A stretch of 64,000 nucleotides of DNA from Cylindrodendrum hubeiense (lineage: Eukaryota; Ascomycota; Sordariomycetes; Hypocreales; Nectriaceae). A program made the position numbers and the translations under genes. Within the stretch, counting starts at the first letter, position 1. The number at the start of each line of letters is the position of its first letter. A model generated the notes under the pieces. The model was not told where the DNA came from and did no database searches. It worked only from the letters and a program-made list of their open reading frames with translations. The stretch covers positions 1 through 64,000 of the forward strand of contig JAANBB010000198.1 of NCBI GenBank assembly GCA_014621425.1, read 5' to 3'. This document shows positions 17,359 to 36,600 of the stretch, one piece after another.

Positions 17359-18567
17359 ATGGGTTCTCTGCACCACGAAGCTACATCTCTGCCCTCATTC
17401 TCCTCCATGCGCTCAGTACTGGCTCAGAATAACAACCGCATCATTCTCTGCGAATCGCACGATGGCAATTCCACGGAGATCATCAGAAGCACTGTGGGCA
17501 ACAACGGCCAGAGGTTCCATGGCATCTGGTACAGCGGTCTCTGCCAGACTACCTATCTCGGCATCCCAGACAGTGAGACGCTCTCCCCGCTGCAGAGGGC
17601 ATCTCTGCTTGCCCTTGATGGTGAGCTCAAGCGCAAGACAAGCAACCGCCCACTCTGTGCTGCTTTTGACGCAGATAGTGGTGGTAACATCGCAGACATT
17701 CCCGCCCTGGTTGCATTATTGAACCTTGTGGGTGTGGGTATGATTGTCATCGAAGACAAAGCCGTTTCTGCACCTGGCCAAAAGGTCAACTCGCTTGCCA
17801 CGGCATCTGCCTCACAGGCGCTGGCTGACCCCAGCGAATTTGCGCAGGTCATCCGCAGTTTCAAAGCTGTCACTGCAAAAGGCGGCCCAATGGTTACTGC
17901 GCGCATCGAGCCATTCTGCTGTCGAGTTGTCGAGTCTGACCCGAAAGAGGAGGCCAAGTCGTATGAAGAGGCCCACCAGGATGCTCTGAAGCGCGCCAGA
18001 ATCTATCATGAGGCGGGCGTTGATGCCATCATGATCCACTCTAAGAGCAAGTCACCTTCTGAAGTTGTACGATTCTTGCGCGAGTATCGCGAATTCAACC
18101 TCGAGACCCCTCTTGTTGTCATTCCTACCACGTACTCCGAGGTTCCTAAGGATGATCTGTACGATGCCGGCGCCAACGTGGTCATCTACGCCAATCACCT
18201 GATGCGCGCCAAGATCAGCGCCGTCAGCTCCATTTCAGAAAAGATTCTCTCGCAGAACTTGGACTTGTTCTACAACGATGACGAGGTGCGTGCTATTGTC
18301 AAGGCACGCAACTACGGTTGTCTGCTACGGAAGCTGAGGAGCAGGAGCCACTGGGGCGAGGAGAGCAACGAGGCTAGAATGTACAGGATTGTCGCCGAGG
18401 CCATTGCTTCACAGAACATCCAGGCTACTGTCCTTGATTTGCTGCAGGGTAAGTTAGCAGGTTGTGAGGCAGACACGCGGATTGTCACAGTCAAGGAGCT
18501 GCTGGCCATTAATGCGAAGCAGGTGGTCTCGGTGGCGGACCTTGTTGGCCAGGTGGATGTCTATTGA
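17359..18567 (+). CDS. Phosphoenolpyruvate phosphomutase (PEP mutase)
   Basis: Forms the C-P bond by converting PEP to phosphonopyruvate, the entry step to nearly all phosphonates. It is a single exon of 402 residues in the isocitrate lyase/PEP mutase superfamily. Landmarks in order: GIWYSGL (equivalent of GIWGSGLS), the metal-binding stretch FDADSGGN (a one-residue-shorter version of DGDTGYGN), the family hallmark EDK followed by NS, the strand TARIEPF with the active-site Arg, MIHSKSKSPSEV (equivalent of LMHSKKADPSDI) and VVIPTTY...VVIYANHLMRAKISA. The hallmark spacing is EDK-x9-NS instead of the classic EDK-x5-NS. EDK...NS, HSK and ANHxxRA together separate it from isocitrate lyase and oxaloacetate hydrolase. 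A C-terminal helical region of about 100 residues extends past the usual 300-residue core. It is 8 kb from a phosphonopyruvate decarboxylase on the same strand. Confidence 0.92.
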   Translation: MGSLHHEATSLPSFSSMRSVLAQNNNRIILCESHDGNSTEIIRSTVGNNGQRFHGIWYSGLCQTTYLGIPDSETLSPLQRASLLALDGELKRKTSNRPLCAAFDADSGGNIADIPALVALLNLVGVGMIVIEDKAVSAPGQKVNSLATASASQALADPSEFAQVIRSFKAVTAKGGPMVTARIEPFCCRVVESDPKEEAKSYEEAHQDALKRARIYHEAGVDAIMIHSKSKSPSEVVRFLREYREFNLETPLVVIPTTYSEVPKDDLYDAGANVVIYANHLMRAKISAVSSISEKILSQNLDLFYNDDEVRAIVKARNYGCLLRKLRSRSHWGEESNEARMYRIVAEAIASQNIQATVLDLLQGKLAGCEADTRIVTVKELLAINAKQVVSVADLVGQVDVY

Positions 18568-19458
18568 AGGGGTTTAGCACAGTCAATTGCTACCTAATCT
18601 ATCTCCAATTGTTCAATCAGTCTATGCCTCACCTAGCGGTCCTATCTATGCAGAATTGGTGGCATGCGGCAACGTAGAGTGCGGACGGGCATTGATGTGC
18701 GGGCATACTCGCTTCCGTCAACGGATTGGTGAGGCAATTTGGAGCTCTACTTGAGCACAGTGACTGGATTGAGCTCTAAATAGGAAATTGATATCCTCCG
18801 TGTGCCCGTAAGACTACCAGCTAGTAAACTCAACTTGTAGCATGCCATATGAACGTTAATCGGGGGTTGAGGTCAAGTTCATCCTTGTCGTGTTGGAGGG
18901 CAATCCCTGTTACAGCGTAGGGAGGAGGCACACTGAGCTATTTTCAATACTTGCTAGTAGACTTGATCCTACGTTGCTGTGCCATGTATGGCAGTGTCCT
19001 CCCGCGACACATCATGCTATCTTACTGCAGGAGGCTGCCACTTTATGTTGGCTGCCTACGCTTCATACTGCCGCTCATTAACCCCATTTGGCCAGTATAA
19101 GGAGACACCCCTTGGATTGCATGTCAAAAGATGGGGGGCTGCAAGTTCAGAAACCATGACGCGGCTGCCGGCAGGATAGAACGGGTAACTTGGAGTGGCA
19201 TAACCTGATTTGTGAGCTTGAGGTGCGGGAGACTACGGAGCCAAATAGCGGTTCACGTAACAAAAGTTTTCCCCTACATGTCATTCCTTGTCAAATACAG
19301 TGGAGCAACCCCAGAAGCTCTACAACCGTATAAAACCTTGACCTCGTCATTCAGAGGGGGGCACGCTGTCTTAACCAGAGATAAGAATTGTCCCGTCCCT
19401 GAATCAAACCCATCTGAATTGTGCTCAAGATACTCACGTATCACTTAAAACCACCGAA
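18568..19458. other. Intergenic region between PEP mutase and dioxygenase
   Basis: An 891-base stretch without a supported gene. Its distal part is the promoter of the dioxygenase, with a TATAAAA element at 19329-19335 and GGGCACGC at 19359-19366. Confidence 0.5.
19329..19366 (+). promoter_or_regulatory. Candidate core promoter of the dioxygenase gene
   Basis: TATAAAA at 19329-19335 lies 124 bases before the start codon. It is followed by a G-run ending in GGGCACGC at 19359-19366. The octamer also occurs before the PEP mutase. This is suggestive only. Confidence 0.3.
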
Positions 19459-20843
19459 ATGGCTCCTGTATTGGTCGAAACATCCGTCAAATTCTCTCAC
19501 CTTCCCAAGACTGAATTCCGCACCAAGCTCGAAGTCAAGCCCAAATCCGCTCTCTTCCCTGACGGCTACAAGACCACAGGCCAGCAGCCGCCCCTGTACG
19601 ACGAAATCCACCCCTATTCGGATTTCCCAAAGAAGATAACGGGCATCACAGCATGGACCAAAGATGACCTTTCTGGAACCCCCGAGAAGGAATCTCTGTG
19701 GAAGCATCCCTTTACCGAGCTGGAGCTCGAGGATCTGAGCACCTCTGCTGAGAATTACATTACGAGCGGACGGGACTTGAACGAGATGTGCAAGGCAAGA
19801 GGCACCTGCCGGACAGAATGACTGCCATGACTCACGCGCACTTCCAGGAATTGTTTCCTCTTCCACGAATGGCCAAGTATCTTGAACAAGTCCGCGATAA
19901 CCTCATCAACGGCTACGGGTTCCTCCTGTTCCAAGGCATGCCTGTCAAGGAATGGGGCATGCGCAAGTCGGCCACGGCTTACATGGGCCTGGGGGCGCAC
20001 TTTGGGCACATTTTGAGCCAGAACGGCAGGGGCCATGTGCTTGGTCATATTAAAGACCTTGGTGAGAACCCGGCTGACTTTCATAAAGTCCGGCTCTACC
20101 GAACCACGGCGAGGGACGCTCATGCTTAGCTGCGACCCTCGGATCAACACTGACGTTATCTTTATCTCTAGACAGACTTTCCACGCCGACCCCGCCGATA
20201 TTGTTGGTCTGCTCTGCCTCAACACGCCTCTTGAAGGGGGCGAGAACGACGTTGTATCTGGCGACCAAGTCTGGAATGTCATGCAGGAAGAGCGCCCCGA
20301 CGTGGCCGAGCTTCTCACTCAACCCATCTGGTACTTTGACCGGAAGGGAGAAGTGAGCGCAGTTCAGGAGGATTACATTCGCTGTGCCATCTATTACATT
20401 GAGAGGGGAAATGGCCGGGTCTACTCCAAGTAAGGCAACCTCGCCTGCTATGTGAATTATAGACACTCACACCCTTTAGGTTCGACCCAAACTACGTCCG
20501 GTCTCTGAAGCGATTCTCGGATAAGGGTGTGATTCCTCCGCTCTCTGACGCACAGGCCGAGGCCATCGAGTTCTTTGACCAAACCTGCTTGCGGGAATCG
20601 ATCCGTAATGTCCTCGAGGTTGGAGATGTTCACTTCATGACCAACAATCATCTCTACCATTCTCGCACGTCGTACAAGGACCATGAGCCGCCGGCTCCCC
20701 GTCGCCACCTTCTGCGACTGTGGTTATCTACGCCTGAGAGTGAAGGAGGCTGGAAGCTGCCGTACCATGATGCTAATTGGAGAAGGAGGGGCGGTGTTCA
20801 AGTAGATGACCGCCCGCACAAGGTGGTACTTCACGCAGACTGA
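19459..20843 (+). CDS. TauD/TfdA-like Fe(II)/2-oxoglutarate dioxygenase (one non-canonical splice donor)
   Basis: Predicted non-haem iron dioxygenase of the fungal TauD family. The model has exons 19459-19794, 19848-20113, 20172-20429 and 20480-20843 (407 residues). The first intron is GC-AG (aag/gcaaga...cttccag). The second must begin with GG rather than GT (ag/ggacgc), yet it has a good branch site (aacactgac) and acceptor (ctctag). Retaining it gives a stop at about 20129. Family landmarks: LINGYGFLLFQGMPV, SQNGRGHVLGHIKDLGE, the metal-binding HAD in TFHADPADIVGLL, the distal His region HLYHSRTSY and the 2-oxoglutarate Arg in HLLRLWL. Placed between PEP mutase and phosphonopyruvate decarboxylase, it is a candidate hydroxylase or C-C/C-P cleaving enzyme of the phosphonate pathway. 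The donor change may mean the gene is impaired. Confidence 0.82.
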
Positions 20844-21962
20844 AGATAGCACCCTATGACGTTGCTGTCGGCCCGAGGGAAGAAATTGAAACCATGGACA
20901 AGCGGAAGCAGGATTGGGATAGCATTCGACAGCTTCAAGGGGGCACAGATACGATACTTGCAGGTAGCTGCTTCAATGTGAACCATGCCAATTGTGCCAT
21001 ACCTTTGGCTAAATAGAGTAATCCCCACCGTTCTTTTTTTTTCGTGCATGTTGTGACGAGTACCTTTGCCTATACGTAGCTTACAGGCTGGCAGCCTTGT
21101 TTATGCCGTTGTGCCGAGTCGATCCGGGGGGGGGGGGGCTGCAGAGCCGCAGGGGAAATTCCTTGGCGGAAGCGACCGCCGTGAGATGTGATATGCATAC
21201 ACTCATATAGTCTACTACGAGCCTACAGTGTCTCTGAGCCACGTCACGCGAGCAACTTCGCCGAGGGGCTTTTTGTTACATTTACTACAGGGATGCGACG
21301 ATAGTGGTGTGATGGAGCATGTAGGGATGGGGATGGCCCGAGACTAGGATTGATCCACGGGGAAAGAGGAGACAAAGAAATACTGGTGGTCGCTAATTGG
21401 TCTAATAAACGGTGTCAGAGGCGTTGGATATATTGTTGGAGGCGCCGCAAGCGTCCGGCTGATCAAAGCTGGAACTGCATCTGACTGCCAACACTCCAGA
21501 TACGGCAGCACATACGGACCCCTCATTCTGTTCACGGGGCTTGCGTCTCTTGCTGGAGGCTGGGTCGTGCTCTGGAGCTGGTGGCCTGAGTCGTGGACAC
21601 TGGGGCGCAATCGCTGAAAAAGATGCAGAGCAATCTTGTAGACATCCATGGAGCATATAGAAACAAGGAAGGAGAATCTGACACATTTGACAGAATCGTG
21701 GAGGTTGTCTATTGAATTGGTGGAGTCGATGTGTTTCTGACCCTGTAGTCGCAGGGACCGTCCGTCGCCCATCTCCTTGGTAGTGTGTGAGCTAGATTTG
21801 TGATGCTGATTTAGACAATCGTCATCCGCAAAGATGCCTAGTTCTCCTCTCAAAATACATACATTTCTAAGCATCTCATACTCTTGTTCTAAGGAGGTCC
21901 CATCTCAGTCTTCAAAATGATCTCACATTTACACTAGTATAGCCTTCATCACCAACAACATT
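20844..21962. other. Intergenic region
   Basis: About 1.1 kb with a G-homopolymer of around 11 at 21127. A 176-codon minus-strand frame at 21344-21874 shows no recognisable domain and overlaps a second open frame, so I do not call a gene. Confidence 0.4.
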
Positions 21963-24900
21963 TCAAGTCGTCAGTGTCAGCTGGAAGCCGTGCTCAAAGG
22001 CCCCTCTTGGCGTATACTGATCCAAACCAGTGATGTATGCAGTGCCATTTATGTACTCAAGCACGGGTGAATGGTCCTTAAGCAGCTTATGATTGTAGCG
22101 GAACTCAATTCCCTTGGGCTCTTCTCTCAAGCCAGCAATCGTGATCCTGTCGAGCGGGGCACAGACTTGGTATGTGTCGTTGGTTTCCACCCGGAGAACC
22201 CCCTTGTTGAAAATGTACTGTATCAGTGTGGTTAGTAGGCTAGTATACGTCGATGACGCTTTCACATACACAGACTATCATGGTGGCCTCGGGTTCGAGA
22301 CTAACACCGTCGTAAGATATACATTGCCCTCAGCATATTGATTGTCGTCAAGAGTGACAAGGAGTGAGAATGCATTTCTCCTCGTTGCCGCCGTCGTATC
22401 CCCTGGCTCCTGCAGTGTCAAGATCGTGCCCCCTCTGACTTGAAGATTGATGTGTTGTAGGGGTGCATCGAGAGTGATGTTCTCCTAAGGCCTGGCGTGG
22501 ACTTCATCTAGTGTGTACCAGTCGTACCAACGAGCACCTTGTCCAATTCCAGGTAAGACACCACGGACAGTTTTGGAGTTTGGAGTAAGCACAGGGGTCA
22601 CTAGGAGGGATTGTCCGAGCAGGAACTGTGAATAGGTGGCCTTGAGACTCTCATCATTGGAGAATTCCCACGCCAGAGCCCTCATCACAAGGTCGCCCTT
22701 GGTGGTGGCGTGATAGAACAGGGTGCAGAGGTAGTTGAGAAGGCTGTATCGCACAGCTATAGCGCGGCGAGAAGCCTCGGCAACAGATGACCAGACAAAC
22801 GCCTCTTGGGATATTGTGCCTGCCATGTTGTGATTGCGGTAGAAGGGCATGAAAGCAGCCATGGACATCCAGCATGCGCAGAGCTCTAAGCTTGCATTGT
22901 GTGAATAGCCGCACGCGTCGATGCCAAACATTGGCACGCCAGCCATCATGTGTGTCAGGGCGTGTGAGATGGACATAAACATGCTTCCCCATTTGGATGA
23001 ATTGTCGCCGCCCCAATGAGCAGCATATCGACCGATGCCAGCAAAGTTGCCTCAAGCAATGTTGAATGGCCGGCGGCCTGGGAAGAGGTCGAGTAGCCCG
23101 TAGTAGGTGGCGTTGGATATCTGATTCCCGAACAAGTTGTGCATCTCATACTCGGTGGTGTTGAGAGCATCGTTGTGGGTTGCATCTGGGGAAATGGTCA
23201 TTCTCACGATGGAGTGGCCAGGCTGTAGACTGTGGTTGTGAGCACTGTTCTTTAGATAATCAAGGCTTGACCAGACTTACTTGTTCAACACATAAGGTGG
23301 GTATGTGAGGTTTCTAACACTAGGAGTCGGTTCAGTGCGTCCCAGTGTGGCCGTGGTAGGGACATCGAAGACTTGCGTAGCCTGTAGAGCAGCCGATTGA
23401 TTGGCAGCAGCCTCCTTTGCCCAGTCGGCCTCGGAGCTGTTTGTCTCAGCAAACGCGTCGGGATACTCATAGAACATGTTGAGTTCCTCTCCGGGAATCA
23501 GAAAAGGAACATGAACTGGATTCATATCCAGATGACCATTCCCGCGAGGTCCAACGCAGTACGACGCAGGTTCTGTCAGATCCGTGAGCATGCCGTCAAA
23601 CGGGACACTGTCGTACCAGATCTTGAGCTCCTTGGCCTACCATGAGTGTGTCTCTGGTAGCATAAAGTCTCCCCAGACAACGAAGCCTGGCCAGTTGTTG
23701 CCCGTGTAGAAGTCTCCGGACACGGGGTATCGGATGAAGGCCTCGAGCTCAGCGCTACGTTCATAAGGGCCACAGGTGTCGTTTTGATTATTAGGGTTCG
23801 GGCGATATACGTTAGGCCAGACAAGGGGAACAAAGTACTACTCATTTCTATGCAGCCAGTCAACTCATTTCGCCATGCGGTCGGGTGGAAAGGTGATAGG
23901 GTTGTTGGCGAAGCTGCGGAAGCCGTCAAACATGTCGAAATCGGACCAGATGCCCGCGAATGGGATATCAGCAGCCCTGTAGCTCTTTACTACAGCCTCA
24001 ATCTTGTCAAGAGTGTCGTATCCTAGGCGACACTGATGGAAACCAAGGGTCCAGAACATTGCATAGCAGGCAAGCCTACGCAGCCGGCGTGGTACTGGCG
24101 CATAGTTTCAACAGCGGTAGATCCTCCATGTTCATTCTGGCCGCTGAGAAATTACAGATCAATGCTGCCGCCGATAGTTCGGTATGTCAATGTCTTAGGT
24201 CTCAGAAGTCATTCCTAGTCATGAGCGTTGCGCGCATATACCCCATGAGAAGTCGTGTTGCTTCCTTTGTGATACCGGCTTTCCTGGTAGAACGGATGCA
24301 CGCCGTAGGTATTTCCGTGCTCAATGCCGGCATCATTGGTTCAGAAGGTCTGCGTGAAGTTCTGTCCGAGAAAGTCGTGTATGTTCTCAGCTATGACCAT
24401 GGTCAGCTTGAGTCTATGTCGTTTGCGTCTTGCCTTACCTAGCCCGTAGACGCTGTAGTCTGGAACCATATTCGTCACCACCTCAATAAACTGGTCTTCA
24501 AAGACAAGCACATGTCCGTATGTTGAAAATAGGATCTCCCTGGTGCATCTCCGGATAATCTTGAACTGAAAGCTTGGCGAATTGCTACAAGGTTCACATC
24601 AACACCTATGAGAACCAAGATGCTGCAACTAGGGTGCTCACCTCCACTCAAATCTGAGGTCACTATTCGATATTTTAGTCTTTTCATCTCGACCAGGCTC
24701 CCGAACAAGGTAACTTGGGAGAATATATTGAGTTCTGTTCCGTTCAGACAGGTACTTGGGGTAGATTCTAACATTCAACCGTTCTTTAGTCTGATACTTG
24801 ACTTCAAGAACCAGATCACGAATATCATTCCCGCTGAGACTAATCAGCGCTAGATGCCAAAGCTAATAGTAAGGGGACATACAACGCCTAACAATCAGGC

Positions 24901-25075
24901 CCAGCAATACTCAGATCAGCCCGCACACCTTTGAGTTTCTGGTCAACGCTGGCGGCCCTATAGCCTGGACAACCCTGTGGGTTTGGTGCCTTGGGATCCC
25001 GAATTGATGGCGTGAGACTAGGAGCAACGCCAATATCAGGAGTAGCCGTAATCGCCTGTACTATAGACGTTATTG
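21963..25075 (-). pseudogene. Decayed GH31 alpha-glucosidase
   Basis: Recognisable GH31 segments lie in order on the minus strand. The N-terminal domain is near 24700-24990 (CPGYRAASVDQKLKGVRADL, then LEVKYQTKERLNVRIY). FWTLGFHQCRLGYDTLDKIE follows near 24000. The nucleophile region is DGMLTDLTEPASYCVG near 23560, where living enzymes have WxDMNE-like sequence. The acid/base and PMFG block (GGDNSSKWGSMFMSIS, GVPMFGIDACGYS) is near 22930. The C-terminal domain is ALAWEFSNDESL, GQSLLVTPVLTP and DAPLQHINLQVRGGTIL. The frame is broken by stops at 22485-22487 (TAG), 23052-23054 (TGA, where relatives have Arg) and 23637-23639 (TAG, where relatives have Trp), plus frame changes. All three stops fit C-to-T type changes. 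The 5' limit is approximate. The family normally cleaves terminal alpha-glucose; this copy cannot be functional. Confidence 0.85.
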
Positions 25076-26539
25076 ATGGCTGACCTACGGATTCATAGAT
25101 CAGTCAGTCTACTTCAGTCACTGTTGATGGGTTCAGCAAACCTTGGACAGCAGGTTTCAATAGTATCGCCGAGATCAGGCTGATAACCCTTGTCCGAGGG
25201 AATATCAGCAATGAGCCAGTAGGAGATATGATGCACTGCAACAAACTACAAGTACTGCAAAGTGATAGGTGCGCTTGTCGTGATTTCGCAAGTTGTGGGA
25301 TTGAATACGACAGAGCGAGACGGAGGAGACAAGGAACCGCAAAGAAAGCATTTGCCAGTATTGACGTCACACACACGAAGCAAAGATGGCTGAAATCAGC
25401 GCCAGGAGTCACGACCTTGGCCGCCCGCATTTCCAGTTTCCGCGCTAGGCGAGACCAACAAAACGCAGGCGAGAAATATACCTCCAACGGATCTGTCGGC
25501 ATCCGTGTCCCTAGTGGCGGCAAGTGAAAGAAGCATTGGATAATACGAGATAAAGATTAGCAGACCGGGGTTTAGGGGCGGGGCGAGCCGAGCCGTGCGA
25601 ATATGATCACTACCGTATCCTAGCTATGGCAATAAGCTTGTCAGCAGTAAGACAAGGAGACATGCACTTAGCCAGTGTAGACCGTCTCAATCAGGCTTGA
25701 CACATCTCCTGCGTTTAGCCAGGGGTGGGTGACAGGTAATGACAGGCAATTGGCAAATTTTAACGCTTTCGTCGTCGGAACTGTATGTGATTCGCGAAAC
25801 CGTACGTGATTCGCGACAAGACGAGCAGCCGGTGTGAGTGCTCTCGCGGCGCAGTTGTCCTTCCTCCGCTTACGAATCAGATGAATCAGATAGATCCGCA
25901 CGGCGATTTCCAATATTTCCTCCCAGATGATACAAGAACCTGGGGTCGATTCGAAGAGTTGCCGACTTTGCCGGGCATCGAATGATGAAGCCTCGGAACT
26001 GGTACGCGATCCTTTAGTATGCAGGCTGTTACTTTCAGAAGATCAGTTGTGAGATATGACGAGGGCGTATATCAGATCATATATAGGCATAACCTTTATT
26101 TGTTCTCTGTTCAAAGGATCTAGGTTTGCGTCAAGGCGTGTCTGTATCACTCATTCAAGGCCTTAATCGATCAGGCCATGATATCTCGGCACATCTCACA
26201 GTTACATTGCATTGACGGGCCGACACTTATCAAATCAAAGGCAGCTTGCGGTAACCTATGCATAAGACAGCTTCCGTGTGAGGCAACTTCTCGCGTGAGG
26301 ATACTTGATGTTTATGCGTAGGATTCGGAACCTCGTTGTCTGGTTGCTTGTGTTGATTCCGCATCTCTCGGATGTACTCTGTCTTCAAGGAAGAACGGAT
26401 CCTCTGGAAATATGGCCAAGAGTCAGACCTTGGTACTTATTCCCTCCTCATTCTGTAGGTGTCTTTGGGTTTTCCACAACAGTGACAATTTATCATAACT
26501 TATTCACATTATCTACGTGCTTCTATACTTCAACTCACC
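25076..26539. other. Intergenic region upstream of phosphonopyruvate decarboxylase
   Basis: This 1.46-kb stretch has no supported gene. The left end probably includes eroded 5' sequence of the GH31 relic. A direct repeat with the core GTGATTCGCGA lies at 25783-25816. Confidence 0.4.
25783..25816. repeat. Short direct repeat gtaygtgattcgcga, two copies
   Basis: Copies at 25783-25797 and 25802-25816 match at 14 of 15 bases with a 19-base period. It lies 0.7 kb before the decarboxylase start. A paired regulator-binding site is possible but unproven. Confidence 0.45.
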
Positions 26540-27739
26540 ATGGCTACTCTTGATCCGCGTTTGTTTTACGAGCAGGCACTTGTCGGCAATGGCATCACCC
26601 ATGCCTTTGGCGTCCCCGACTCCTGCTTGAAGGGATTTCTCGCGTACCTGTACGCCACCAAGAAATCCCCAGAGCACATCGTGACAGCGAGTGAAGGCGC
26701 TGCTATCGGTCTGGCCGCTGGCTACTATCTCTCGACCAAGAACCTCGCAGTTGCATACATGCAAAACTCGGGCCTTTCAAATGCCCTCAACCCCCTTCAG
26801 TCTCTGGCTGCCAAAGAAGTGTTCGGAATTCCCCTGTTGCTGGTGGTCGGCTGGCGAGGCAGACCAGGAGAGCACGACGAGCCGGAGCACCTCCTGGCAG
26901 GCCCCCGCACCTTAGGAACTCTAGAATCGCAGGGCTTTCCCTATGAGATTCTGCCATATACGCTCGAAGCTGTCACTAGTGCTGTCGCGCGGCTCATCAA
27001 GACCGCCAGGGAAGGCAATACGCCTGTTGCCCTCATCGTTCCAAACCACAGATTTGCTGCGTACAGTCCTGAGCGCGGCGAGAGCAATGGACTTTGGCAA
27101 CCCCCTGTGGCCAACGTGTTTAAGCTCACAGCTAGAGCCGAGGATTGGCGGTCTTCTGAAGGGGATCTTGCCTTGTCGCGGGAACACGCCATCCGCATCA
27201 TTCTCAAGCGCCTCTATCCATCCGATGTCACTGTGTCCTCAGTTGGCGGAAACTCTCGCGAGATCTACATGGTTCGCAAGGAAAATAACGAGGATCTGTC
27301 TCGCGCATTCCTGTCCATCGGCGCCATGGGCCACACGTACCCGCTGGCCTATGGAGTTCAGATCGGCCATTCCAAGGGCCGGGTCATCTGCGTGGAAGGC
27401 GATGGTTCGTTCTTGATGCACGTAGGCAACGTGGCTGTTCTTGCTGCTCAAGCTTCAGATGAGCTGATCCACGTGGTTATTCACAACGGCATTCACTGCT
27501 CTACTGGGAGCCAGCCTATTCCCATCAACACCAACAACCTGCTCTCGCTGGCTGGAAGCTTGCCTTACAAGCAAAAGTTCTTCGTGGACAGTGCCGAGGG
27601 TCTCATTCAGGCGTTTGAGTGGGCTGAGAAAAGTACACTTATCGTTGTGGTTGTCAACCAGCATGTTTCAAAGGACTTGCCTCGACCATCGGAGCATCCG
27701 TTTGAGCTGAGAGACTCGTTTATTTCTCATTTTACCTAG
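26540..27739 (+). CDS. Phosphonopyruvate decarboxylase
   Basis: Thiamine-diphosphate enzyme that decarboxylates phosphonopyruvate to phosphonoacetaldehyde, the irreversible step that drives the PEP mutase reaction. Single exon, 399 residues, close to the usual 375-400. The N-terminal pyrimidine-binding domain starts with the family hallmark AFGVPDSCLKGF, then has the ASEGAAIGLAAGYYL stretch with the cofactor-activating Glu, and MQNSGLSNALNPLQSL. The C-terminal domain has the ThDP motif starting GDGSFLMHVGNVAVLA and ending in HNGIHCSTGSQ. The short two-domain form, without the middle domain of pyruvate decarboxylase, fits this family and sulfopyruvate decarboxylase. The presence of a PEP mutase nearby decides for phosphonopyruvate. 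Confidence 0.92.
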   Translation: MATLDPRLFYEQALVGNGITHAFGVPDSCLKGFLAYLYATKKSPEHIVTASEGAAIGLAAGYYLSTKNLAVAYMQNSGLSNALNPLQSLAAKEVFGIPLLLVVGWRGRPGEHDEPEHLLAGPRTLGTLESQGFPYEILPYTLEAVTSAVARLIKTAREGNTPVALIVPNHRFAAYSPERGESNGLWQPPVANVFKLTARAEDWRSSEGDLALSREHAIRIILKRLYPSDVTVSSVGGNSREIYMVRKENNEDLSRAFLSIGAMGHTYPLAYGVQIGHSKGRVICVEGDGSFLMHVGNVAVLAAQASDELIHVVIHNGIHCSTGSQPIPINTNNLLSLAGSLPYKQKFFVDSAEGLIQAFEWAEKSTLIVVVVNQHVSKDLPRPSEHPFELRDSFISHFT

Positions 27740-28415
27740 AAACGTAGATTAGTCTAGCTGTAAATCAATGCATCTTGCGCAATCATATGCGAGTACTCAC
27801 TGTCAAAGCCAGAATACGTCTGTCTAGTATGTGAAGTGTTGTGATTTCCATTTATTTGACTTAGACGCAACAACTAATACAACATCCATAATGGGCTACA
27901 GACACTCCATAGACTGCCAGTTTGCCACCGCTCGCGCAATAGTCCCGCATGATGAGACAGTGACAGTAATTAGGAGGATCGAGCTGGTTTGGTGGTAGTA
28001 TGGCCAGCAGATTGAATATCACATCATGGTCGTCTGGCGTATCCATGCGTGTAGTGGCTGTACTTCTCCGCACCCTGCAGCCAAGATATCCCCTCATCGC
28101 TTATCTCCCCGCTGGCTCTACCAATGACCAGGACAATGTTCGGGAGTATCACATGTACGTTGCCGATTCTTCAATCGGAGCTTCTACCATTTGCGTACTT
28201 GGGTACTGATTTGCTGACAAGGGCCTAAGGAATTAGCGGTCGGATCATTTGACAGGCACGATAAAGAGCTAGGCAATCGCCTGAGCGAGCTATTTCTGTT
28301 TCCATCCAGTTTTCAGGACTGGTCAGCACCTGGAACCTTTTTATTGCCTGCACTCGATCACCATCAAATTCTCATACAGATTGTTTGCAATTCATTCTAC
28401 ATTACAACATCCAAT
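27740..28415. other. Intergenic region before the aldo-keto reductase
   Basis: These 676 bases hold the decarboxylase 3' region and the reductase promoter. A GGCACG core occurs at 28255-28260. No gene is visible. Confidence 0.4.
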
Positions 28416-29472
28416 ATGGCCCCTCAACGAAAGTCGAGAGTACCCGTTATTTTTGGTGCTATGACGTTTGGCAGAGAAGGTTTGCTTGCTTGTCCAACCT
28501 CGAGAAGCCTCGTTAACAAATTCAGGTGTCGAACAGGCGCGCATCCATGATCTCAAGCAAGCGGGTGCCATGTTAGATCTCTTCCAAAACCACGGCGGTA
28601 CAGTGGTTGATACAGCCCGTGTATACGGTCAAGGTTCCTCGGAAGAATACCTGGGACAGCTAGACTGGCAAAGTCGAGGCCTCGTAGTTGACACGAAGCT
28701 TTACCCCAACATACACGACGGGACTGGCAAGATTACTCATTCTTCTCAAGATCTTCGCAAGCATCTCGATGAGTCCCTCAAAGCCCTCAAGACAGACAAG
28801 ATTGACCTCTGGTATCTTCATGGGCCAGATCGCAGTACCCCGTTTGAGGAAACTCTCAGGGCCTGCAACGAACTGCACCAGGAGGGCAAGTTCAACAGAC
28901 TCGGACTCAGCAATTACATGGCGTGGGAAGTGGCATACATAAGCGACCTGTGTATGCGCGAGGGTTGGGTTCGCCCTACAGTGTACCAGGGAGTATACAA
29001 CGCCATTCATCGGACTGTAGAGATGGAGCTATTTCCGTGCCTCAAGCACTATGGCATCACTTTCTACGCATTCAGTCCGCTAGCTGGCAGTCAGCTTACC
29101 GGGCGGTACCGGCGTGATACCAACGACACGGACATTGAGTCCATGTCTCGCTTCGATCCGAACACTTTCCAAGGTCGCAAGTACCGGCGACGGTTCTGGA
29201 ACGACGCTATTTTCGATGCGCTTGAATTGATTAGAGAAGCAGCAGGAAAGCATCAACTTACAGAGATGGATTGCGCTTTCCGGTGGATTGCTCACCATTC
29301 CAAGTTGGATATTGCGCGAGGTGATTCGGTCATCATCGGGGCCAGTAGCAAGAGGCAACTGGAGGAAAATCTTGGGTTTATGGAGAAGGATCCTCTGCCA
29401 AGAGATGTTGTGGAAGCGCTTGACAAGGCATGGTTGATTACCAAGGGTAGCGTGAATAATTACTGGCATTGA
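28416..29472 (+). CDS. Aldo-keto reductase (AKR7/aflatoxin-aldehyde-reductase type)
   Basis: NADPH-dependent reductase of aldehydes with a TIM-barrel fold. Exons 28416-28479 and 28526-29472 (46-base intron, gtttgc...ttcag) give 336 residues. The catalytic tetrad is visible: Asp and Tyr in VDTARVYGQG, Lys in VVDTKLYP and His in DLWYLHGPDR. LGLSNYMAWEV, AFSPLAGSQLTGRY and the cofactor-site IIGASSKRQLEENL follow in normal order. In the phosphonate context it is a good candidate to reduce phosphonoacetaldehyde, or a later aldehyde or ketone intermediate, to an alcohol; that substrate is inferred from location only. A general detoxifying reductase is the alternative. Confidence 0.88.
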
Positions 29473-29819
29473 ATGACGTTACCACTCTCGGGTATCTCGG
29501 CACTCTTGAACAGGGTTATAGCCAAGAAGAGGGGGGACCTTATCTAGCTATTGGGGGACAACGCGTTTTCTTATGGGCTGCTAAATTCTGCTGAATACAC
29601 ACAAATTCAGCTTTGGACAGGTCTTGCAGCCACTCGGGGTGTCTGTAGAAGCTTTCCGTCACTCTTCATCAGGTCACCTGACTAATGAACCTCCCCTCTC
29701 TAATATATCACACCGTAACTCTTCACCTTCCTACAACATTATCAACATTCCACCGTAATACCATCAACCCAACAGCTCAACCTTGACAAGCGCATCTCTT
29801 TGCAAGCTCAACTACAAAC
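29473..29819. promoter_or_regulatory. Intergenic region, promoter of the GST-like gene
   Basis: A 347-base gap with a TATA-like TAATATATCA at 29701-29710 and a CA-rich leader running up to the start. Confidence 0.4.
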
Positions 29820-30727
29820 ATGGCAGACTGGGAAAATGCAGAGTATACGCTCTACTCGTCTCCCTTCTCCCTCTATTCCATGATGGCTCGTCATACGATC
29901 CAACTCGGCCCCATAACACATGACGCAATCCCGCCCAAGAGTATTACCCTGAGCTTCATCAACCACAAAGCCAATGAAAATCTAAGCGAGTATTACCTAA
30001 CCAAGGTGAATCCAAAAGGCCAGGTTCCTACTATGACTGGCAACATTCTCCAACAGCCACTTACTGAAAGTCGCGCTATCTCGCTCCATCTGGCTGAGAA
30101 GCACTACCCAGCCATGCTGCCGGCGAAACACGAAACTGTCGTCAGAGATCTTTTCCAAAGACTCCATGCTGTATATGGCCTGTCCATCAGCAACAGGAAT
30201 CCCACACCCGAGATGAGGCAGTACAATCCTTCCCCAGTGGAAAAGATCCTCAAGAGGGCTGATATCAGTCCGGAGTATCGCGCCGCTCTTGAAGTGAAGC
30301 TCGCGTTGTAGGCTGACCTTCTATCCTCGGAATCTGGAATTAATATTGACGCTGACCCTCAATTAGCCACAATGAACAAAACGGCGTGGCCTTTCAACCT
30401 GCCATTGTAGCCAAGAACCGTGCCGACCTTCAGGCCATTTTTGTAGAAATCGTCGAGCATCGTAGGCAGAGCGGCTCTATTGTCAACGACGACGAATGGA
30501 CTTTTGGCTCCGAAGTAGGGCCAACCATACTCGACAGCCATCTGCTTCCCTTCGTCCTGCGCTGCATTGAGGTTGGCAGTGCCGAGCTTGTTCCTCTAGA
30601 GTTACAGCGGTGGGCTGAGGTCAAGGCAAAGAGCCCGTCGTGGCAAAGGGTCATGCGCGGTAGGCCGACTACATATCATCCTTCAATGGGCCCTGTTGAA
30701 GAGATGCACGATATGATGTCCCTTTAG
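29820..30727 (+). CDS. Glutathione S-transferase-like protein
   Basis: Exons 29820-30307 and 30367-30727 (59-base intron) give 282 residues. The N-terminal thioredoxin-like domain reads TLYSSPFSLYSMMARHTIQL, then VNPKGQVPTM with the cis-Pro of GSTs, then LTESRAISLHLAEKHYP, matching the glutathione-binding E-S pair. The C-terminal part is helical, ending in a DSHLLPFVLRCIE region like fungal GSTs. Some fungal cluster GSTs add glutathione to reactive intermediates or act as isomerases; which applies here is unknown. It is on the same strand and next to the reductase, so I count it in the phosphonate candidate cluster. Confidence 0.82.
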
Positions 30728-32686: not shown

Positions 32687-33645
32687 AGTCCAGGGAAAAT
32701 ATTGAAAGGATAGTGATGATAATGCACGTCCATGCTGGCTTCTCTCATCGTCTTTTCTACTCAAATATGTGGATCCATGGTACTTGCAGGCCATTCTGAC
32801 AAGCATTGGGCGTGTTCAATGTCACGCCTTAAATCTGGCATCAAGGCGAAGGCCGGGACTCACACCAGGGAGGGTAGACTGACCCCAGCCAATCGACAGA
32901 CCACTTTGGAGGAGTTCACGGCAGCTTGTTACCTAACATAATGGTAAAAACATCGGATGCGGGCCCGCGCTTGTACTGCTTCAACTCCACTCCATCGCCT
33001 CTACGGGATGGGGGTATTGCGGGATCCCCTCCCTGGCCTTCGTCGACCCTCTCACTGGTTGGCAATTTTATCATCTATAGGCCCATTCGGCGCAATGATG
33101 AGACCACTATGTTGGATTGACCATTGATGCAGTCTGTCGTACTTTTAATCCGCTCATTCAAGTGGTTTCATATCGCGTGACAGCTCTCATATGTTCGATT
33201 TCAGATCTGCAGGCTCACTCCCGTCTCTACTACCCGTCGCTACTACATCCGCCCATCGTTTGCATGTCGTCATGTTGTGCCCCGTCAATAGGGCGTGATG
33301 ACAAGGTGACCAGCCAATCGGGAGGGGTGCCGATGCTCTGTAGCGTGCCGAAACCGGCTGGACCGCATCGCTCTGATTTATCCGGGCTGTGTGGATAGTT
33401 TGCGCTTAACAAATTCTGAGCCCAACAACTCTTCGTCCACTTTTGGGGACGACCGCATTTATTCAGCAGGGTAGACGATAATGCGAGGTTCGTCCGACGC
33501 ATCAATGTCCGGGATTCGCTAGTCCGCTTACCTCTATCGTGGCGCGCGCTTAACTCGGCTTCCTCCACTGTGTTCCAAGGTGGGGCAAGTAAGCTACTGC
33601 CGAGCGTCTCCTCGGTTCACCTTTGCAGCTGCCAAGACGTTCAGC
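32687..33645. promoter_or_regulatory. Divergent region between arrestin-like gene and homeodomain regulator
   Basis: This 959-base divergent promoter region has no supported gene within. Confidence 0.4.
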
Positions 33646-36600
33646 ATGGCTTCCAAGGATATCTTTTCTGATGGCACAGACCTAGATTTCAGCCTGGATA
33701 ACCCTCTTGGCGAGGACCTGGCCTTCCTCTCTGATGGATATATCTACAATGACACAGGTTTTGACAGCGGGGATCCAGATGCTATCCCCACTGACAGAGA
33801 CTCCTGGCTCACGGCTGAAATATCTGCTTTCGACTTTGTTAAAGAGGGGCAGCAGAACCAAAGCATCGAAGGGTTTCCGGAAAATGCCCTCCAAGGCGGG
33901 TCTCACGCATCGTCTGCGCCTGGCTCGCTGGGTCACAACCCATCCATCTTTAGCAACAACCTAGATCATGTCCCCAATCAAAACCACGCCATAACTACTT
34001 TTCCTGGAGAAATGATTGCAAATACATCGTCATTTTCTATCCATGACACCACTCAGACTATACCTCCATCCAAGTCTGGGACCAGGTTTAACAGAGAGGC
34101 GGTCCGCATTTTGAAACATTGGCTCTCAACTCACAACAATCATCCTTATCCTGACGAGGTTGACAGGAGCATACTTCAGGAGCAGACTGGTCTAAACAGG
34201 ACCCAAATCGCAAACTGGCTCGCCAACGCACGTCGTCGAGGTAAGGTTCCTGCCTCTCGCACGGCTTCGCGTCCCCAAAGTAGCTCCGCGAGCCCAATCG
34301 ACATTCCCCCAAGACCGGCAACACCGGCAGTGCATACTGGACCGTCTCAAATGAATCCACTTGAGAGATGGGTTGACTCTCCACCTGAAAATGAGCCTGC
34401 TAGCGCTACTGCCATTGCTCGAGCAGTTGCTTCCACCTCCAATCGATCGCCGAGTAAGTCAATCAAGTCAATATTCATGGGCAGACAACCCCTAGTCAAG
34501 GCCTTGGGGAGTTCTTAGAATCATTTTGGGATGTTGACCTACTTTCCAGGGGCTGATGAATCGCACAATCCCGACGCAACTCGAGACGGGTCGGATAAGT
34601 CTTTCTGCAATACCTCCTCCGCAAGGAGTATCGATACCTCCTGCTCGAGCGGTGGCTCACACCAATCTGCTACTTCTCATGTCAGCAATGGGTCATTCGG
34701 ACCGTTCAGGGCTTTCGGTCACCCGCGCTCACGTCGTAGAAGACGGATTCAAAAGCAGAGCAACGGAAAAACACCCCTATCTAGTCCATGGAAGACCTTT
34801 CAGTGTACGTTCTGCACTGAAACATTCAGCGCGAGGTATGATTGGCAAAGGCACGAGCACACGCTCCATCTACCGCTTGAGCGATGGGTATGTGCCCCAG
34901 ATGGGCCTCGAGTTCTTAAACCGGATACTGGCACCATCTGCTGCGTGTTCTGTGGGCAGACAGATCCCGATGATGCCCATGTTCAGAGCCATAACCACTC
35001 AACATGTCAAGATCGGTCGGTCCACTGGCGGACGTTCAATCGGAAAGACCATTTGAATCAGCATTTACGACTAGTCCATAACTCCAAATTTACCGCATGG
35101 CCGATGAAGTCTTGGAAAGTTGCGATGCCAGAGATTCAGTCACGATGTGGCTTTTGTGGGCACACTATGGACACCTGGGATGCTCGAGTTCACCATTTGG
35201 CAGGCCACTTCAAGTCTGGCAAGACTATGGCCGACTGGAAGGGTGACTGGGGGTTCGATTCTGAAGTTCTGGCACTCGTAGAGAACGCGATTCCACCATG
35301 TATGAGATCAGATCTGCCCCCCCTAGCATATATATTTCTCGAACAGCTTCTTACTTACATGCACAGACTTCATTAACACCGAACGCTCGACTCCATTTCC
35401 GTTCGAAGGCAGCCGAGCACTAGCAGAAACCCCGCGAAGCGCATACGAGCTTCTAAAGCTCGAATTGGCATATTTCATGCAGACACATTTTGACAAGAAC
35501 TCAAGAATGCCGAGCAGCGAAGAAATGCAACTTGAGGCCTGCAGGATTGTTCTTGCGTCAGAGGTTGCATACCAGCAGGACGCATACCGACAGGAAGTTC
35601 CACACCCTCCTTCATGGCTACAAGACTTGATCATGTCAGCAGACGAAATCGTTCAGAAAGCAAAGTTTAGTCCGATGAGGACCTCGGCCGAAAGCAGACT
35701 CTTCACATTGAGGATCAATGGGAAGACTAGCCTATTCGAGGAATGCCCATTCGAAGCCCAGCTTCACTATTTTGTTCAACTTCGGCAGCTATCGGGCTTT
35801 ACGACCATCCCCAGCGAACTAAAAGAGGAGGCATGTTGTATTCTCGGTCGGATGGAAGAGGTCTCGACTACTCCATCAGATTTCATTGCGACTTGGCTTG
35901 TCAAACTCATCCACTCACCCGCGGACTGGTTGTCTGGATTTCTTCAACGCGCAGAGGTCTCCTTCCTGGATAATTTTGAGAGCCAAGAAAATCTCAAAAT
36001 AGATGCTACCATCCAAGACTATACCAAACTCGAGCGAGAACTGGCAAAGTATCTCGATGTGCAGAGGGCCATTGGTATTGAGCCAACGGATGAAGAGCTC
36101 CGACGGCAGGCCCGTATTATAATTTACGACACAGACATAGCACATAATCAGACAGCAGCTGATGATAATTATTGGCTGTCTGCCTTCAAAGGACGACACG
36201 TGGTCGACCTAATGCTTGAGGATACCATTGCTTCAGAACACAAGGCTCAGGACTCCATTCCAATGGACGGAACTTTGTCACTCTATGAGATATCTATGGC
36301 TCCTGAAGCTAGTAACCATAGCAGCCCCCAGGGAGCGATAGGAGGAGACGATCGCCACTCAATTCTGGCAGCCCGGTCTTTGGTGATGAAGGCTGGCAGC
36401 TTTTTTGTTAGCGATCCCAACTTCTACCGATGGATCACAGAGGAGCTAGCCCGTTGGGTTGCCGCGACCATGTCGTCTCACAACCCAGCTTGTCATGTCC
36501 CAACCGACGCGGAGATCCAGCACTATGCCCGCTGGATCACATACAACGAGTAAGATTCCTGTCTTCATTCAACGTTTGCTATACTTATCAATCTTAGCGA

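Follow-up and report, generated by a model that had tools for sequence, protein, structure and literature searches.

A probable fosfonochlorin-type phosphonate gene cluster in Cylindrodendrum hubeiense, with doubt over its oxacyclase step

We analysed a window of 64,000 nucleotides (bases 1-64000 of a 68,754-base contig) from the fungus Cylindrodendrum hubeiense (Nectriaceae), and found that it probably holds a phosphonate gene cluster of the fosfonochlorin (ffn) type, a reading to which we give a probability of roughly 83%. Five genes on the plus strand encode a phosphoenolpyruvate (PEP) phosphomutase (PepM), an FfnD-like Fe(II)/2-oxoglutarate dioxygenase of the TauD family, a phosphonopyruvate decarboxylase (Ppd), an aldo-keto reductase (AKR) and a glutathione S-transferase (GST)-like protein. 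An earlier note on this DNA had proposed a phosphonate cluster from the mutase and decarboxylase genes on one strand, accompanied there by TauD-like, AKR and GST-like genes. Both open reading frames (ORFs) were recovered with their Pfam domains, and the other three genes could all be modelled on the same strand. Much is known of phosphonate pathways in bacteria, whereas little has been documented in fungi. We regard the locus as a genuine fungal phosphonate cluster of a described kind, with doubt over its signature step, the one attributed to FfnD.

Identity of the mutase and the decarboxylase

The pepM gene (17359-18567, plus strand) is a single exon encoding 402 amino acids with the motif EDKAVSAPGQKVNS, and its product matched Pfam PEP_mutase with 121.4 bits. 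At E<=0.1, PepM matched four distinct sequences of solved structure, three PEP mutases (102.2, 98.6 and 92 bits) and one phosphonopyruvate hydrolase. Mutases 1m1b (102.2 bits) and 5unc (92 bits) thus scored above the hydrolase 2dua (75.5 bits). The gating loop EDKAVSAPGQKVNS carries Asn as in the mutases, at a place where the aligned hydrolase 2dua has Thr, and the EDK..[KR]xNS motif is present in 119 of the 120 listed PepM relatives. Among the NCBIfam models, the PEP mutase model TIGR02320 gave the best score of the three matched (200.8 bits), ahead of the hydrolase model TIGR02321 (81.3 bits) and the methylisocitrate lyase model TIGR02317 (25.4 bits).

To place the protein among its relatives, a tree of 36 rows was built from 18 fungal-type sequences including the window PepM, 15 bacterial sequences and 3 outgroups. 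All 18 fungal-type PepM sequences grouped together at 100/100, in a tree whose outgroup branches are very long and which holds no hydrolase row. Within them, the window PepM fell into a nine-row set (99/99) with the proteins of Fusarium proliferatum, F. avenaceum, Dactylonectria, Clonostachys, Penicillium longicatenatum, Hypoxylon, Biscogniauxia and Talaromyces islandicus. It is 66% identical to the T. islandicus PepM, and shares this supported clade with members of the ffn type of Fusarium and Talaromyces. When 62 of the 120 listed relatives were included, a wider tree, two of whose outgroup rows are faulty, gave a corresponding set of 20 rows with a support of 100 in the Shimodaira-Hasegawa-like approximate likelihood ratio test (SH-aLRT).

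These results support the assignment of the window protein, judged from its sequence, as a fungal PEP mutase and not a hydrolase or lyase. The earlier note had seen a grouping with oxaloacetate hydrolases or methylisocitrate lyases as fatal to its proposal; model scores and trees instead group PepM with fungal PEP mutases. The isocitrate-lyase superfamily is shared by all these enzymes, and the TIGR02320 score of PepM lies below the equivalog cut-off of 319.55 bits. An oxaloacetate hydrolase, methylisocitrate lyase or phosphonopyruvate hydrolase function is nevertheless hardly credible, given the gap between the mutase score and the other two model scores, the mutase motif and the Ppd gene in the same cluster, and we ruled it out on the structure matches, model scores and tree.

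Across the genome (47.5 megabases in 798 contigs), this type of mutase and this type of decarboxylase each occur once, as judged by searches with the T. islandicus proteins. The T. islandicus PepM as query gave a single match, the window PepM, and the T. islandicus Ppd likewise matched the window Ppd and nothing else. With the isocitrate-lyase superfamily model, 11 matches were found in the genome, three of them scoring above the window PepM; these three, inspected out of the ten others, lack the mutase motif.

The window enzymes share their motifs and the first two steps with bacterial PEP mutases and decarboxylases (for example PDB 5unc and 9iz3). The fungal-type gating loop is longer than the bacterial one: the spacing between EDK and NS is 9 residues in 118 of the 120 listed PepM relatives (one has 10, one gave no match) and 5 residues in all 15 bacterial rows. 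In the comparison with solved mutases, the C-terminal stretch of the window PepM past about residue 303 lies outside the alignment. Further PEP mutases, 46-63% identical to the window PepM (P0020-P0120), occur in Penicillium, Metarhizium, Fusarium culmorum, Purpureocillium, Aspergillus, lichen fungi and metagenome rows. Where placed in the wider tree, they fall outside the ffn-type clade. One of them, P0024, and the AKR P0271 come from contigs of identical listed size (24,978).

The ppd gene (26540-27739, plus strand) is also a single exon, encoding 399 amino acids with the Pfam domains TPP_enzyme_N and TPP_enzyme_C. Its TIGR03297 score of 312.9 bits is just over the equivalog cut-off of 312.5.

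Co-location in other fungi, the reductase and the GST-like gene

Gene order in other fungi, a comparison that the earlier note had suggested, was read from locus tags or from contigs of identical listed size, and the core genes were found to be co-located in several species. T. islandicus carries consecutive tags for AKR (PISL3812_04805), Ppd (04806), PepM (04807) and TauD (04808), the same set of mutase, decarboxylase, aldehyde reductase and FfnD-like dioxygenase that lies together in the window. The order differs, being AKR-Ppd-PepM-TauD there and PepM-TauD-[GH31 remnant]-Ppd-AKR-GST in the window, which also has the GST-like gene at its end. In P. longicatenatum the tags are N7507_006383 (Ppd), 006384 (PepM) and 006385 (TauD), and in T. 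rugulosus 08543 (AKR) and 08545 (PepM). A single T. pinophilus scaffold, TCE0_044, holds AKR (17304), TauD (17309) and GST (17315). Contigs of identical listed size link PepM with TauD in Clonostachys rosea, and PepM with Ppd in Dactylonectria and in Hypoxylon. Taken together, these data speak for a genuine cluster in which the decarboxylase has an aldehyde reductase next to it, and for the phosphonate reading of the locus.

The AKR gene (28416-29472, plus strand; exons 28416-28479 and 28526-29472) was placed through an 88%-identical relative from F. lateritium, P0242; among solved structures, P0242 is closest to the AKR7 aflatoxin-aldehyde reductases (274.6 bits). Short aldehydes bearing an acidic tail, such as succinic semialdehyde, are reduced by AKR7 enzymes, and phosphonoacetaldehyde would therefore be a sensible substrate. 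By this analogy, we propose the AKR7-like enzyme as the phosphonoacetaldehyde reductase. Bacteria commonly use iron alcohol dehydrogenases at this point, whereas the window has an AKR7-like enzyme for the aldehyde reduction step. A metagenome protein of 743 amino acids (P0241), on a contig of 2,371 bases, contains Ppd and an AKR7-like reductase in one frame, and may be a real fusion or two genes run together in the gene call. If real, the fusion would tie the decarboxylase and reductase steps physically.

The GST-like gene (29820-30727, plus strand; exons 29820-30307 and 30367-30727) adjoins the AKR gene, and the introns of both are all GT-AG. Its spliced product of 282 amino acids is identical over its length to the public C. 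hubeiense protein G7Z17_g8160 (P0243). The GST N-terminal domain scores above the Pfam cut-off, and similarity to solved GSTs is weak, 23.6 bits at best. Among 24 non-self GST rows, at least 4 (Camillea tinctor, Biscogniauxia mediterranea, Fusarium austroafricanum and T. pinophilus) have GST on the contig of Ppd, or of AKR, Ppd and TauD. Co-location was judged by identical listed contig size or locus tag, and since one contig size is listed per protein cluster, the true number may be higher. The family is broad, with many listed rows from fungi without a listed PepM, and the GST-like gene is a tentative cluster member.

The FfnD-like dioxygenase

The FfnD-like gene (19459-20843, plus strand) was modelled with exons 19459-19794, 19848-20113, 20172-20429 and 20480-20843, giving 407 amino acids if so spliced. 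The product is 83% identical to the T. islandicus protein, more than PepM is to its counterpart. The nearest solved structures to the T. islandicus dioxygenase (P0121), by sequence and by fold, are the phosphonate hydroxylase FrbJ and TtnM. FrbJ (PDB 5eqn), the closest, reached 142.2 bits with the family profile and a fold score (TMt) of 0.84, and its HxD...H motif is aligned; it is 24% identical and a hydroxylase. FrbJ belongs to the FR-900098 pathway and is not known to close epoxides. The predicted structure of the FfnD-like protein has a predicted local distance difference test (pLDDT) value below 50 for 120 of its 407 residues, and the model was therefore not used for geometry. A paralogous TauD-type gene elsewhere in the genome (G000:C92:6347-7258, minus strand) is 59% identical to the T. 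islandicus FfnD-like protein and carries one in-frame TGA.

The three introns of the gene are, in order, GC-AG (19795-19847), GG-AG (20114-20171) and GT-AG. The donor of the second is nonstandard, although its acceptor is AG. Homologues align without interruption across the second junction (RTTARQTFHAD), which leaves little question about the exon boundary and confines the doubt to the donor. Retention of intron 2 would truncate the protein at residue 205, immediately ahead of the HxD iron motif. Nine in-frame GT-AG alternatives were rejected, as each removes or rewrites conserved residues. A GC option at 20118-20175 keeps the length at 407, but it alters a Gln that is invariant in 47 aligned rows. 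The four exons are open, with no in-frame stop or frameshift, and the presumed iron ligands, 2-oxoglutarate residues and terminal arginines are kept.

To evaluate residue changes, we made a leave-one-out conservation count on a family alignment of the window protein, five clade members and 115 paralogues. Of the 125 sites with 99% conservation or more, 5 differ in the window copy (E92D, V180I, H232D, G265V and K389R). The corresponding counts are 5 of 100 in C. rosea, 1 of 122, 0 of 121 and 2 of 123 in the three Eurotiales copies, and 1 of 99 in a metagenome fragment; the 115 paralogues have a mean of 0.34 changes and a maximum of 2. E92D and V180I are common to the window and C. rosea, and K389R to the window and P. 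longicatenatum. The remaining two, H232D and G265V, occur in the window copy alone, at near-invariant sites; FrbJ and TtnM do not share the residue H232, and we claim no catalytic role for it. When full invariance was demanded, the window was changed at 1 of 101 sites, a count also seen in 14 of the 115 paralogues, with 2 in one more.

At sites 97% conserved, the window FfnD-like protein is changed at 8 of 145, C. rosea at 7 of 118 and the Eurotiales copies at 2-3, and the paralogues have a mean of 0.57 and a maximum of 4. The same count on the neighbouring genes gave 1 of 109 for PepM (50 relatives; 1 of 81 with 120), 0 of 162 for Ppd (21 relatives), 0 of 67 for AKR (66) and 0 of 88 for GST (24). 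Rows dropped beforehand for low coverage, for fusion (P0241) or as self numbered 3 of 24 for Ppd, 6 of 72 for AKR and 1 of 25 for GST. The count serves as a pointer and not as a selection test, since the sets compared are not composed alike and high counts also occur in some control rows: the F. austroafricanum Ppd (P0298) differs at 35 sites invariant in the other compared Ppd rows, as if mis-modelled or decaying. As such a pointer, it places the change signal, among the five genes of the window, in the FfnD-like gene. The other four, including the genes for the first three enzymes of the proposed pathway (PepM, Ppd and AKR), look intact. The splice site and the two private substitutions leave the FfnD step in doubt.

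We also looked for this gene in relatives of C. hubeiense. The FfnD-like clade among the best 120 of 2866 TauD matches, which reach down to 513 bits, comprises five rows: T. islandicus, T. pinophilus, P. longicatenatum, C. rosea and one fragment. Neither Fusarium nor Dactylonectria appears as a row name among these 120, in a listing that does not give the names of the members each row stands for. PepM and Ppd of both genera are present among the listed matches; the Fusarium PepM rows P0003-P0006 stand for 75, 16, 1 and 1 sequences, and the Dactylonectria row for 4. A near-full-length orthologue from either genus would be expected at the top of the TauD matches, whereas short gene models would fall below those listed, and the C. 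rosea model itself is without about 20 internal and about 40 C-terminal residues. The gap fits loss, decay, or an intron beyond the gene callers.

Proposed pathway, competing products and surrounding genes

We infer the chemistry of every step from the gene identities. PepM would convert PEP to phosphonopyruvate, and Ppd would decarboxylate this to phosphonoacetaldehyde, pulling the unfavourable mutase step. The AKR7-like enzyme would then reduce the aldehyde to 2-hydroxyethylphosphonate, which the FfnD-like dioxygenase may close to epoxyethylphosphonate. Opening by chloride and an oxidation would lead to fosfonochlorin, possibly with the GST-like protein taking part. A halogenase would not be needed if chloride opens the epoxide. 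This scheme follows the route that Gama et al. reportedly described in 2022 from Fusarium and Talaromyces, in which reduction of phosphonoacetaldehyde yields 2-hydroxyethylphosphonate, an alcohol that FfnD closes to (S)-epoxyethylphosphonate on the path toward fosfonochlorin.

The ffn kind of cluster is already published, and Cylindrodendrum is a newly added genus. A review describes FfnD as a 2-oxoglutarate-dependent, epoxide-forming enzyme of fosfonochlorin biosynthesis (PMC10764440). By automatic comparison, genome papers have credited Fusarium with fosfonochlorin clusters: at 53% in F. oxysporum f. sp. lentis (PMC12213878), with 53 and 61 in two table columns for a hazelnut isolate (PMC12072968), and with high similarity in F. 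oxysporum BPF55 (PMC13117560) and F. proliferatum TQN5T (PMC13355032). Fungal pepM clusters came up in the literature search as mentions, without a study devoted to them, and no report of an ffn-type cluster in Cylindrodendrum surfaced in that search, which did not extend to the text of papers on C. hubeiense. The earlier note, which held fungal phosphonate clusters to be little worked out, was unaware that the ffn type had been described. It had left the choice between fosfonochlorin and another product undecided; the gene set, being of the published ffn type, narrows that choice. The note had also missed that the dioxygenase gene looks damaged.

Several points weigh against the fosfonochlorin-type reading. 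Besides the GG donor of intron 2, the changes H232D and G265V and the mutase score under the equivalog cut-off, no enzyme for the chloride and last oxidation steps was found, and the five genes lie in two parts because a decayed GH31 gene on the opposite strand sits between the TauD and Ppd genes. Orthology to the assayed FfnD is argued from the taxa in which it is reported (Fusarium and Talaromyces) and not from sequence comparison. In addition, a 2014 study reports that fosfonochlorin was undetected in three F. avenaceum strains, and doubts earlier reports (PMC4237347).

The alternative with the most in its favour is that the oxacyclase is dead or nearly so, and that PepM, Ppd and AKR are kept for 2-hydroxyethylphosphonate, free or attached, as the end product. 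The truncation expected from retention of intron 2, the damage done by each of the nine GT-AG alternatives, the excess of changes over the Eurotiales copies, paralogues and neighbouring genes, and the missing Fusarium and Dactylonectria names in the best TauD matches all speak for it. We nonetheless hold it doubtful, though a serious contender. The exons are free of stops and frameshifts, identity to T. islandicus is higher than for PepM, and the presumed iron and 2-oxoglutarate residues are kept; moreover, an error at one base of one draft assembly is conceivable. Relatives share three of the five changed sites, the single change left under full invariance is reached by 15 of the 115 paralogues, and poorly modelled control proteins also score high. 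Short gene models would rank below the listed matches, whose cluster members are unnamed, and two of the genome papers cited above find Fusarium clusters highly similar to that of fosfonochlorin (PMC13355032, PMC13117560).

It is clearly less probable that the epoxide is formed and then opened with glutathione by the GST-like protein, with a thiol-derived phosphonate, or a product for self-protection, made in place of fosfonochlorin. The position of the GST-like gene next to AKR, its shared contigs with pathway genes and its GST N-terminal domain are consistent with this, but the breadth of the family and the weak similarity to solved GSTs speak against it. Production of 2-aminoethylphosphonate for membrane lipids or glycans is very improbable, even though PepM and Ppd are its usual entry. 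As the earlier note had observed, neither an aminotransferase nor a halogenase is visible: no Pfam match to either family was found among the 37 window ORFs scanned, smaller ORFs lying outside the scan. On this result we rejected a 2-aminoethylphosphonate cluster. An aldehyde reductase accompanies PepM and Ppd in several fungi, near whose PepM no aminotransferase was searched for.

Within the fosfonochlorin-type reading, the oxacyclase may be breaking down in this lineage, with 2-hydroxyethylphosphonate or another compound as the product. A broader form of this idea, which we think rather unlikely, is that in Hypocreales the oxacyclase has disappeared or is disappearing from the ffn cluster while the mutase, decarboxylase, reductase and GST-like gene stay constrained. 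Such fungi, including the Fusarium credited with fosfonochlorin, would then make 2-hydroxyethylphosphonate or a derivative; in a variant, a working FfnD is kept behind an unusual non-GT intron missed by gene callers. The fosfonochlorin type thus gains a named genus, with core genes common to Eurotiales and Hypocreales, and mutase and decarboxylase together in Xylariales too. The AKR7-like enzyme is pointed to as the aldehyde reductase, and a testable doubt is raised over which fungi complete the pathway, one that touches the genome papers calling a Fusarium fosfonochlorin cluster by cluster similarity.

The GH31 glycosidase remnant (22719-24056, minus strand), which the earlier note had not mentioned, contains five internal stops (2 TGA, 2 TAG and 1 TAA). 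It lies outside the pathway, and was ruled out as a member as the gene is decayed. The left flank of the cluster encodes a prolyl-tRNA synthetase, a LYC1-like acetyltransferase and an M28 peptidase. The right flank has an ORF with Bul1/arrestin matches below the cut-off and a KN homeobox ORF, followed by EMP70, Med4 and ALG10. The region 33580-36553 (plus strand) holds the KN homeobox ORF and, further along, an ORF with a Tc5-transposase-type DNA-binding domain. In the 8 kilobases after it, the GC content is about 0.45-0.50 and long ORFs are few.

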